DNA of 42,675 nt, taken from NCBI GenBank assembly GCA_905480475.1, contig CAJQQO010000195.1, positions 1-42,675 of the forward strand. Reading direction: 5' to 3'. The notes under the pieces are model-generated. The model did not search any database. It was not told the origin of the DNA and was given only the letters and a program-made list of their open reading frames with translations. The translations under genes and the position numbers were made by a program. This DNA is from an uncultured Pseudomonadales bacterium (GTDB lineage Bacteria; Pseudomonadota; Gammaproteobacteria; Pseudomonadales; UBA7434). Every line of letters starts with the position of its first letter. Within the stretch, counting starts at the first letter, position 1. Of the stretch, positions 30,937 to 40,855 are shown piece by piece.

Positions 30937-33747
30937 ATGGAATTTGTTGTAGGGCAACGCTGGGTTAGTCAAGCCGAGCCACAATTAGGTTTAGGTTTAG
31001 TCGTTGAAACCGACGGCCGACATATCACGTTAAACTTTCCAGCCGCTGAAGAAGATCGTATCTACGCAGCTAACAGCGCTCCGCTGGCGCGAGTAGTTTA
31101 TCAAACCGGCGACACGCTGCACGATATCGAACAAAACGAATTACTGGTTACCGCGGTCGAAGATGTTAACCAGATAAATTATTATTTGGCGACCAATGCC
31201 GATGGCGAAGAACGAATTATTCCCGAATCCAATATCTCGGCGTCTATTCAGTTAAGTTCGCCAACGCAGCGTCTTTATAGCGGTCAATTTGATAAAAACG
31301 CCGCCTTTCAATTGCGCGCCGCCACCTTACACTTTCGCTATCAACTGCAATGCTCACCCGCGCGCGGCTTGTTAGGGCCACGAACTAATCTGCTTAGACA
31401 CCAAATTTATATCGCCCATGAAGTCGCCTCACGTTATGCGCCACGGGTTTTGTTGGCCGACGAAGTAGGTCTGGGTAAAACCATTGAAGCCGGTATGATT
31501 TTGCATCATCAACTGCAAACCGGATTAGCAAGCCGAGCGCTTATTATTGTACCCGAGCCGCTATTGCATCAATGGCTGGTTGAAATGCTGCGAAAGTTCA
31601 ACTTGCATTTTTCGCTATTTGATAAAGAGCGCTACGATGAATTGCGTGAAAGCGATGAAGAAAGTAATCCCTTTGAATCTGAACAATTAATTCTATGCAG
31701 TCTGGACTTGTTCAACAGTGACGAACGTATTGTTCAAGAAGCCTGTGAAGCGGGTTGGGACCTCACCATTGTTGATGAAGCCCATCACTTACAGTGGTCA
31801 GAGCAAGAGACCAGTACTGAATATCAAATCATTGAACAAATCTCGCGTTTTAGTGCCGGTTTATTATTGTTAACCGCCACACCCGAACAACTTGGCATAG
31901 AAAGTCATTTTGCGCGCCTACGATTATTAGACCCGGCGCGATTCCATAGCCTAGCGGCTTTTATCGAAGAGCAAAGTCACTTTGTTGAACTCAATGATGT
32001 AGTCAGTGCGCTGGCCAATAATGAAACTTTATCCGAGCCGCAGCAAAAACAACTGGCAACATATATAGGCGAACTACCTGCCGACGGTAGCTGGGACGAC
32101 GAGGCGCACCACCAAAAACTTATTAACCGACTGTTAGATCGTCACGGCACTGGCCGGGTCCTTTTCCGTAATACCCGCGCAGCCATTCAAGGATTTCCAC
32201 AGCGGGTACCTCATGCTTATCCGCTCGACAAACCCGTCGACTACGCGAATGAAACAGGCTTATACCCAGAGCGAGCATCACAATTAAGCGGCGACGAATG
32301 GCTGGATAACGATCCACGTGTCAGCTGGCTAGAGGCGTTTTTAAAAGAACATCGCAATCATAAAGTATTATTGATTTGCGCCAACCCGAATACCGCAGTG
32401 GATTTAGAAAAGCATCTTCACTTAACCTTGGGTATACGCAGCGCAGCATTTTATGAAGGCTTATCAATTATCGATCGCGATAGAGCGGCTGCCTACTTTG
32501 CCGATGAAGATAGCGGCGCGCAGGTTTTAATTTGTTCGGAGATTGGCAGCGAAGGTAGAAACTTTCAATTTGCTCATCACTTGGTTTTATTTGACTTACC
32601 GACCAACCCGGATTTATTAGAACAGCGCATTGGTCGTCTTGATCGAATAGGTCAAACCGAAGATATTCAAATCCATGTGCCATTTATTAAAGATTCCGCA
32701 CAAGAATATTTATATCGCTGGTATCAAGAAGGCTTAAACGCTTTTGAGCAAAGCTTTTCGGCAGGCTTATCGGTTTCGCAACAATTCGCCCAACAACTTG
32801 CACCATGGCTTGAGGGTGAAAGCGGTGAAGACTTTGAACAATTAATTACTGCCACCGCTGCACATACTTTAAGTGTTAGAGAAGAATTGCAAAACGGCAG
32901 AGATCAATTACTGGAACTCAACTCCTGTAATAAAGTTGTTGCCGATGAAGTTATTCAAACCATTGCAGATGCCGAGCGCTCGGAAGTTTTGCAATCGTAT
33001 ATGATGATGTTATTCGACATCTTCGGTGTTGATTCGGACTTTCACTCCGAACATTGTTTAGTGCTCTACCCAACCGATCAAATGCTTACCGGTCATTTTC
33101 CCGGTTTAAAGGATGAAGGCGTTACTATTTGCTTTGACCGTGCCAAAGCCCAGCAACGCGAAGATATGGAATTTGTGACCTGGGAAAATCCCATGGTTAG
33201 CGAATCGATAGAAACCGTATTAGGTATGGAGCTAGGCAATGCTGCCATCGCCGCCTTAAAACTTAAATCGATTCCCGCTGGCACTTTAATGGTGGAATGC
33301 TTTTTTGCCATTCAATTTAGCGCGCCGAAAAAATTGCAACTCGATCGCTTTTTACCGGCCACACCTATTCGTGTATTGCTTGATAGTACGGGTAAAGATT
33401 TAACGACAACCATTAAGCATGCGCAAATGAACAAGCTTTGCGGTCACCTTAAAAAATCTAACCGTCTTGCGATTATCAAACAGATACGCGGCGAGTTAGA
33501 AAAAATGATTGCCCAAGCGCAAAAGCAAGCGCAAGTAAAAGCCCAGCCAATGATCACCGCAGGTAAAGAGCGGGTGATTGAAACGGTAGGCGAAGAATTC
33601 AATCGACTTACGGAACTCAAAGCGCTTAACGGTACGATTCGCGAAGATGAAATCGAATTTGTTAAAACAAGACAGAGTGAAGCCTTAAAGCATATTGAAA
33701 ATGCGACCGCAGAGTTACAAGCAGTGAGAATCGTTATTAATACTTAA
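30937..33747 (+). CDS. rapA: RNA polymerase-associated ATP-dependent helicase RapA
   Basis: MEFVVGQRWVSQAEPQLGLG start; PRVLLADEVGLGKTIEAGMILHH, TIVDEAHHLQW, LICSEIGSEGRNFQFAHHLVLFDLPTNPDLLEQRIGRLDRIGQ. The ORF track starts at a TTG (30931); the ATG is at 30937. Confidence 0.97.
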   Translation: MEFVVGQRWVSQAEPQLGLGLVVETDGRHITLNFPAAEEDRIYAANSAPLARVVYQTGDTLHDIEQNELLVTAVEDVNQINYYLATNADGEERIIPESNISASIQLSSPTQRLYSGQFDKNAAFQLRAATLHFRYQLQCSPARGLLGPRTNLLRHQIYIAHEVASRYAPRVLLADEVGLGKTIEAGMILHHQLQTGLASRALIIVPEPLLHQWLVEMLRKFNLHFSLFDKERYDELRESDEESNPFESEQLILCSLDLFNSDERIVQEACEAGWDLTIVDEAHHLQWSEQETSTEYQIIEQISRFSAGLLLLTATPEQLGIESHFARLRLLDPARFHSLAAFIEEQSHFVELNDVVSALANNETLSEPQQKQLATYIGELPADGSWDDEAHHQKLINRLLDRHGTGRVLFRNTRAAIQGFPQRVPHAYPLDKPVDYANETGLYPERASQLSGDEWLDNDPRVSWLEAFLKEHRNHKVLLICANPNTAVDLEKHLHLTLGIRSAAFYEGLSIIDRDRAAAYFADEDSGAQVLICSEIGSEGRNFQFAHHLVLFDLPTNPDLLEQRIGRLDRIGQTEDIQIHVPFIKDSAQEYLYRWYQEGLNAFEQSFSAGLSVSQQFAQQLAPWLEGESGEDFEQLITATAAHTLSVREELQNGRDQLLELNSCNKVVADEVIQTIADAERSEVLQSYMMMLFDIFGVDSDFHSEHCLVLYPTDQMLTGHFPGLKDEGVTICFDRAKAQQREDMEFVTWENPMVSESIETVLGMELGNAAIAALKLKSIPAGTLMVECFFAIQFSAPKKLQLDRFLPATPIRVLLDSTGKDLTTTIKHAQMNKLCGHLKKSNRLAIIKQIRGELEKMIAQAQKQAQVKAQPMITAGKERVIETVGEEFNRLTELKALNGTIREDEIEFVKTRQSEALKHIENATAELQAVRIVINT

Positions 33748-34474
33748 GGCCAAGACGCTTAAAGCTTGTCAAACCAATAATGCCGGATATAAACAACCAT
33801 GCCGCAGCCGGTACCGGTACTTGTGAAATGGCGATAGTGCCATCGAGGCCGACCGAGAAGGATCCCACCGCTGAATTCAGAACCGGCTCATCCGTTGTAC
33901 TGTTGAAGGCGTTCTCGTATTGCACATACCACAGCGGCGTAAGCGATGAGCCCACCGATGTAAACGTACTCTGTAGTACCAACTGATCGATGGTGCTAGG
34001 ATATTGCGCGGTAAACACTTCATTAATCAATGCAAATTCCCGCGAGCCACTCGCTTCTAACTGGATATCATCCAGCATATTAAACCAGATTGTTTTCTTC
34101 TCCCCCAACTATTGACCCGTTTCGACAGCATTGGCCAACTGACTGCTTGAGGAGCTACTAACCAAGCCATTATTTTGATACGACGGCACTTCACCCGCCG
34201 CAGGTGGGCCGCCGACTCTGCCTATATCATTAACTCCGGCAATTAGCGCCCACTCCGACCCCGGGTGCGCTGCAAGAAATGCAGCGAGGCCGCTTGATGT
34301 TACTGCGGCGTTGGCACCGTCAACGATATCTTGCCCGTCGAGTAATAAATCAAAAAAATAAAAATCTGCACCAGCTGCATCTTTCACAACCACAACCGCT
34401 GAATCATCATCGAATGCTGCGTGAGAATGAGAAGCTATAAGACACGCTAATACGAGGGACGCTGGCTTTTTCAT
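33737..34474 (-). pseudogene. PEP-CTERM sorting-domain protein interrupted by one in-frame TAG
   Basis: Two contiguous same-frame ORFs: 34474-34109 (signal peptide MKKPASLVLACLIASHSHA...ANAVETGQ*) and 34108-33737 (LGEKKTIWFNMLDDIQ...ISQVPVPAAAWLFISGIIGLTSFKRLGLKY), separated only by TAG at 34109-34111. Confidence 0.75.
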
Positions 34475-34671
34475 ATATCTCTCCTTGAACTATTTTATTT
34501 ATTTTTAGTGACAACTAAACCACGTTGTTAGTTGAAATCACCCTAGCAGGCGACTCGGTATCGATTGCGCTTACCACCACTAGCATAAAAGAATAACTCG
34601 TTGCGAATTCGACAAAGCAATATGACTGGCCTTGCTAAATTTCTTCATACTTTTAATAAGGGTTTTCGCAC

Positions 34672-35073
34672 TTACAAAACACCTCTTGCTTTAGCGGCGA
34701 CCCAAGGTGCTATGAAAGTTACTAACAACACGATAATAAATAAATTGCCGTCCTGTAGATTAAAAACCTGCGCAATTTCCTGCCATGATTTTCCTACAAC
34801 ATAATGGCCAAATGGAAATTCAACCAGCAGGGTAAGCGAAACCCAAAATAAGCCAATAACAAAATATCCTTTCTCGTTTGGCAAATCGAATAAGCTGATC
34901 GACACCCAAGAGACCGCCAAGATGAGAGCTGAAAGGGTTAAGCCACTCAAAGGAAGCGCATATTCTGTTCCAACAACAGCCACCAAAACCATTTCTCGGA
35001 ACAGTCCATTGATTATCGCCACAAAAAATATTGCAAGCCATATTCCAGTCGCTCTAAATGATATCGCGATCAT
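34672..35073 (-). CDS. Small integral membrane protein of unknown function
   Basis: 133 aa with about four hydrophobic segments (MIAISFRATGIWLAIFFVAIINGLFRE...). Confidence 0.65.
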   Translation of the reverse strand: MIAISFRATGIWLAIFFVAIINGLFREMVLVAVVGTEYALPLSGLTLSALILAVSWVSISLFDLPNEKGYFVIGLFWVSLTLLVEFPFGHYVVGKSWQEIAQVFNLQDGNLFIIVLLVTFIAPWVAAKARGVL

Positions 35074-35556
35074 AGCTGTGTGGAGAATTATCCTGATTAA
35101 CTACGCAAAATTAAGCGAAGCTTGGTTCAGATAGTCAATGGGCGGCTTTATCGGCCATACTATTCTTACTCATAACAGGCAATTCAAAAGATCTATTAGC
35201 CTTATCATTTTTATTCAGTAAAAAAATACAGCGTACAAATTAAAAATAATCTTATTAGTAATCAACGCGATAGCGTTTAAGGGGAAGTGAGATCTCAGAC
35301 AAAACTGACAGGAACACAAATCCCTTTCCCTTGATCACATCCCTATCGACTATAAATATCAAAACCTTAAATACTTTGAAGCTAAAGGCGAGAGCAGCAC
35401 TGCTGCTTCCGAACGATGGATACGAACAGCTTCCACATATTTCTTAAATAAGCTGCGGCTATATACCGGGCATTAAGAGCGTTAACTAATACGGCAGGGA
35501 AATCTTGAGGCAGGGGGAAAATTTGTAGGCTTTAAATTTTTAATATGTGGTTATCA

Positions 35557-35596
35557 CCGAGTATACAAAAACCTTTGTGGTCAAAAGTATACTCGG
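35557..35596. repeat. Perfect 10-bp inverted repeat with structured spacer
   Basis: CCGAGTATAC-aaaaacctttgtggtcaaaa-GTATACTCGG, downstream of the peroxiredoxin stop codon. Confidence 0.75.
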
Positions 35597-35627
35597 CAAA
35601 TAAACCGTACTTACTTTGTATAACTAT

Positions 35628-40357: not shown

Positions 40358-40855
40358 ATGCCCGAAGCAGAAAGCATACAAAACATTATTCACACGCTGT
40401 CGCTAGAGCCGCATATCGAAGGTGGTTATTTTCGGCGCACTTATGCTGCAGAGCCAGAGAACGGCAAATTTTTTGCCTCATCGATTTATTATTTATTAAC
40501 TGCGCAATCGCCAGTAGGTCATTTGCATCGCAACCGTAGCGATATTATTCACTACTTTCACTCGGGCCAAAGCTTTCGCTATACCTTAATCGATACGCAA
40601 GGGTATTTATCGACGGTAACACTCGGCAACAATATCGATCAGGGTGAAACACCGCAGCTATTAGTCAAAGGCGGATACTGGAAAGCCAGTGAGCTGTTAA
40701 TCGATCAAACAGATCCCGAGCAATACGGATTAATATCGGAAGCAGTTGTGCCCGGCTTTAATTATCAGGATATGCAAATTGCCACTAGCCATGATTTATT
40801 AACGCTCTGGCCGCAACACCAAAATACACTACAACATTTAATTAAAAAGGCTTAG
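40358..40855 (+). CDS. Cupin_5 (DUF985) family protein
   Basis: LEPHIEGGYFRRTYAAE, SSIYYLLTAQSPVGHLHRNRSDIIHYFHSGQSFRYTLID, WKASELL, EAVVPGFNYQDM are DUF985 hallmarks. The track starts at a TTG (40343); the ATG is at 40358. Confidence 0.9.
   Translation: MPEAESIQNIIHTLSLEPHIEGGYFRRTYAAEPENGKFFASSIYYLLTAQSPVGHLHRNRSDIIHYFHSGQSFRYTLIDTQGYLSTVTLGNNIDQGETPQLLVKGGYWKASELLIDQTDPEQYGLISEAVVPGFNYQDMQIATSHDLLTLWPQHQNTLQHLIKKA

Follow-up and report, generated by a model that had tools for sequence, protein, structure and literature searches.

A gene for an exported PEP-CTERM surface protein in the window, 42,675 nucleotides of contig CAJQQO010000195.1 of an uncultured Pseudomonadales bacterium, is split by an in-frame TAG at positions 34109-34111. 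The gene is most likely a young pseudogene or null allele broken by this single codon. The probable cause is a nonsense mutation that recently hit a dispensable VPLPA/PEP-CTERM paralog specific to this lineage. We infer that the stop is real in cells and that the product is non-functional or merely a shed 121-aa fragment. The original prediction gave the position of the stop and the content of the gene correctly, as the reading of the ORFs confirmed. A nonsense mutation was among the options it listed and is the one favoured here, although the genome alone does not separate it from a base error.

Anatomy of the interrupted gene

The coordinates predicted for the gene were right, but they have to be read on the minus strand; on the plus strand, the same interval is riddled with stops. 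An ATG at 34474 on the minus strand, preceded by AAGGAG, opens a frame of 121 codons (Table 1). The N-terminus of this upstream half, MKKPASLVLACLIASHSHA, is by eye an evident signal peptide (KK, a hydrophobic core and SHA/AF). The halves proved to be contiguous and in the same frame, parted only by the TAG and then TTG, as had been described. The downstream frame continues TTG GGG GAG and is free of stops until a TAA at 33739-33737 (minus strand). Near its end lies the sorting signal, VPVPAAAWLFISGIIGLTSFKR, which is of the VPLPA type (VPVPAAAWLF...KR). The translation holds both elements that had been described, a signal peptide in the upstream half and a sorting signal closing the downstream half.

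Table 1. Features of the interrupted gene and its locus (positions in the window)
Feature	Position	Strand	Basis
Upstream half, 121 aa, N-terminal signal peptide, ends at TAG	34109..34474	-	ORF, paralog alignment
In-frame TAG, context CAA TAG TTG GGG	34109..34111	-	Sequence
Downstream half, 123 open codons, then TAA	33737..34108	-	ORF reading
VPLPA/PEP-CTERM sorting signal, residues 219-240	33755..33820	-	TIGR03370 match; like signals genus-wide
Ribosome-binding site AAGGAG of the upstream half	34475..34495	-	Sequence
Lineage-specific insert at the junction of rapA and the peroxiredoxin gene	33748..35627		Congener comparison
Hydrophobic 133-aa ORF on the insert, without family match	34672..35073	-	ORF, family search

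When the same bases were shuffled, the downstream frame remained stop-free in only 0.14% of the shuffles, and the in-frame codon usage of the downstream half outscores that of the other five frames. Given its length and composition, this open frame is unlikely to have arisen by chance. An open, coding-like downstream frame is also what active readthrough would lead one to expect. Promoter and terminator scans around the gene yielded no more than they did on shuffled sequence, and a Pfam search with the gene returned zero matches.

The downstream half has no signal peptide of its own. Nearly all PEP-CTERM proteins bear one (PMC1569441), so the downstream half could hardly function alone. That the locus encodes two separate proteins, with the downstream ORF restarting at the TTG right behind the stop or at the ATG 10 codons further (34078), is scarcely credible: both start codons are at hand, but in a sequence scan none of the in-frame starts of the downstream half was preceded by a Shine-Dalgarno motif, and an intact paralog in the same genome unites both parts in one frame.

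Intact paralog and sorting machinery

The paralog is an uninterrupted 244-aa protein encoded on contig C334 (G000:C334:1278-2009, P0002). Its layout and length are the same as those of the window gene; it differs in being open throughout, with a TAG solely at its true end. The two are 38-41% identical lengthwise, with 60 of 115 aligned residues identical in the upstream half (52%), only 20 of 92 over residues 123-216, and 15 of 26 in the sorting signal. Just past the TAG, residues 123-152 resemble the paralog beyond what shuffles produce (global z 4.7, 0/3000 shuffles; local P 0.006), so the homology does span the stop. Over residues 153-214, similarity to the paralog was undetectable against shuffles, and this region is either fast-evolving or of different origin. 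The homology argument is therefore limited to about 30 residues directly behind the stop and to the sorting signal, which is generic. The intact paralog and the similarity detectable over the TAG support the claim that this is a single PEP-CTERM gene, interrupted once, and the TAG truncates in the window gene an architecture of which an intact homolog exists. A PDB sequence search with the paralog came back empty, and a structure prediction from the two-sequence alignment reached a mean pLDDT of 38 and was left unused.

We found no ortholog of the window gene in 146 relatives or in 369 genomes of the class. A wider profile search without the sorting signal recovered only the gene and its paralog among the 369 class genomes. 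Most matches in relatives span the generic sorting signal alone, and the sole other homolog extending beyond it in these sets is a piece, in G002, of an ortholog of the paralog. This 98-aa homolog had the look of the C-terminal half of a split gene, but was rejected as one, since it is only truncated where its contig ends. A match between the downstream half and an ORF in L040 was taken as chance; by its sequence, that ORF is an RmlD-type sugar reductase.

At the C-terminus of the translated gene, a VPLPA-type motif, a hydrophobic helix and a cluster of basic residues are plain to see in the sequence. The NCBIfam VPLPA-CTERM model TIGR03370 matches it with an E value of 3e-5 and 22.9-23.8 bits, under the cut-off of 25.35 by 1.5 bits at the higher score, and the paralog passes with 32.4 bits. 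A search of the genome for an exosortase, which the original prediction had suggested, found XrtD on contig C5 (TIGR04152, scoring 594 bits where the cut-off is 400). XrtD is the cognate exosortase for the VPLPA-type signal of the gene. The gene shares with the VPLPA-CTERM/PEP-CTERM substrates (TIGR03370, PF07589; Haft et al. 2006, PMC1569441) a signal peptide, the VPxPAAxWLF motif, a hydrophobic helix, a basic tail and the partner exosortase; unlike them, it is broken by one stop, and its signal scores slightly below the TIGR03370 cut-off. With the TAG between them, the signal peptide and the sorting signal do not stand on one polypeptide, and would be joined on one, as in an exosortase substrate, only if the TAG is read through or erroneous. 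A second, divergent exosortase is encoded on contig C325 (L048 1405-2928; 105.2 bits against the general cut-off of 105.55), next to a TPR-protein gene.

The top-scoring NCBIfam protein family was the flocculation-associated PepA (NF033554), and a role in flocculation is known for a PepA (PMC9850573). The family matches the C-terminal part of the gene weakly and the paralog from end to end, with 27.8-32 bits (27.8 for the gene) against an equivalog cut-off of 80. Falling so far short of 80, the gene was ruled out as a PepA member.

Decoding of the TAG

TAG is an ordinary stop in the host genome. Of the 34 window genes, 10 terminate in it, and so do 58 of 205 long coding frames in the 351 kb of the genome that were sampled; the paralog, too, naturally ends in TAG. 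The release factor gene prfA (RF1) is intact, with 361 aa. Coding-like frames joined across a single stop showed no bias towards TAG in the 351-kb sample (2 TAG, 4 TAA and 1 TGA), and a second TAG-joined case, at 40853, consists of two adjacent annotated-looking genes. The amber suppressor tRNA that the original prediction proposed looking for did not appear: no CTA anticodon occurred among the 26 tRNAs detected, in a partial survey that scored 150 of 201 candidates in an 88% complete genome and from which several isotypes are missing. A genome search for the pyrrolysine system found no PylB above the cut-off. Unusual structure was not seen in the RNA 3' of the TAG (z -0.83). The base following the TAG is T; in E. 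coli, amber codons followed by T are poorly suppressed.

These observations bear on another option of the original prediction, that programmed or suppressed amber readthrough produces both a short form that is secreted and a long one that an exosortase sorts. None of the tests made supported it, and we regard it as very unlikely, with TAG acting as a normal stop in the sampled genome, RF1 intact, and neither a suppressor tRNA among those detected, a pyrrolysine system, a stimulatory RNA structure nor a favourable following base in evidence. The 123 open codons leading to an intact sorting signal and the presence of the matching exosortase XrtD would suit readthrough. Belinky et al. 2021 (PMC7918605) have also argued that bacterial genes contain in-frame stops fairly often, some of them conserved. 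The cases in that study resemble the window gene in that a single stop interrupts a frame which otherwise codes, but they were picked for a stop shared among orthologs, whereas for this gene no ortholog was found in the 146 relatives and 369 class genomes. The test results leave room for low-level background readthrough, which may occur. It is highly improbable that such low-level amber readthrough yields two forms, one of 121 aa that is shed and one of 245 aa that the exosortase anchors, and so determines how much of the surface protein is free relative to anchored.

The main rival to a nonsense mutation is that the TAG stems from a wrong base in the assembly or consensus, or from an allele of a minority strain; the real gene would then be intact. 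A single base is at stake, the rest of the gene looks intact, and the genome is a draft of 376 contigs, 88% complete. However, a consensus built from short reads rarely contains substitution errors, and the other 16 matches that the protein has in this genome, most of them further PEP-CTERM genes, are all free of internal stops. We consider such an error or allele rather unlikely.

If the TAG is a nonsense mutation, RF1 would end translation there and leave at most a 121-aa exported fragment. Without the C-terminal anchor, XrtD could not sort this fragment. The downstream half would probably stay unmade, because it lacks both a good start site and a signal peptide of its own.

Locus and age of the break

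The gene sits on an insert of about 1.9 kb, which begins directly after the rapA stop and also holds the 133-aa ORF. Of 11 congeneric genomes, 10 lack the insert, with rapA directly adjoining the peroxiredoxin gene at its end, and because these ten carry nothing at the site, the gene appears dispensable in the genus. A short AT-rich inverted repeat parts the two genes in two of the ten. The eleventh congener, G003, has a 717-aa ORF of the TonB-dependent-receptor type at this junction. Neither end of the insert is marked by repeats. The PEP-CTERM frame runs towards rapA and overlaps it by 11 bp (33737-33747), the last residues and stop of the former being encoded opposite the last codons of the latter.

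A random substitution in the downstream half would give a stop in about 3.8% of cases. One stop and zero frameshifts imply either recent loss, or error, or continued constraint. The loss of function, if real, would be recent, because neutral divergence of about 5% suffices for even odds of a second stop.

For annotation, the gene is best described as a frame-interrupted PEP-CTERM paralog, a probable pseudogene, neither two proteins nor a case of recoding. Its significance beyond annotation is small, and the case is an ordinary one. Across species, the junction of rapA and the peroxiredoxin gene accepts varied cargo, and single PEP-CTERM paralogs can be lost.
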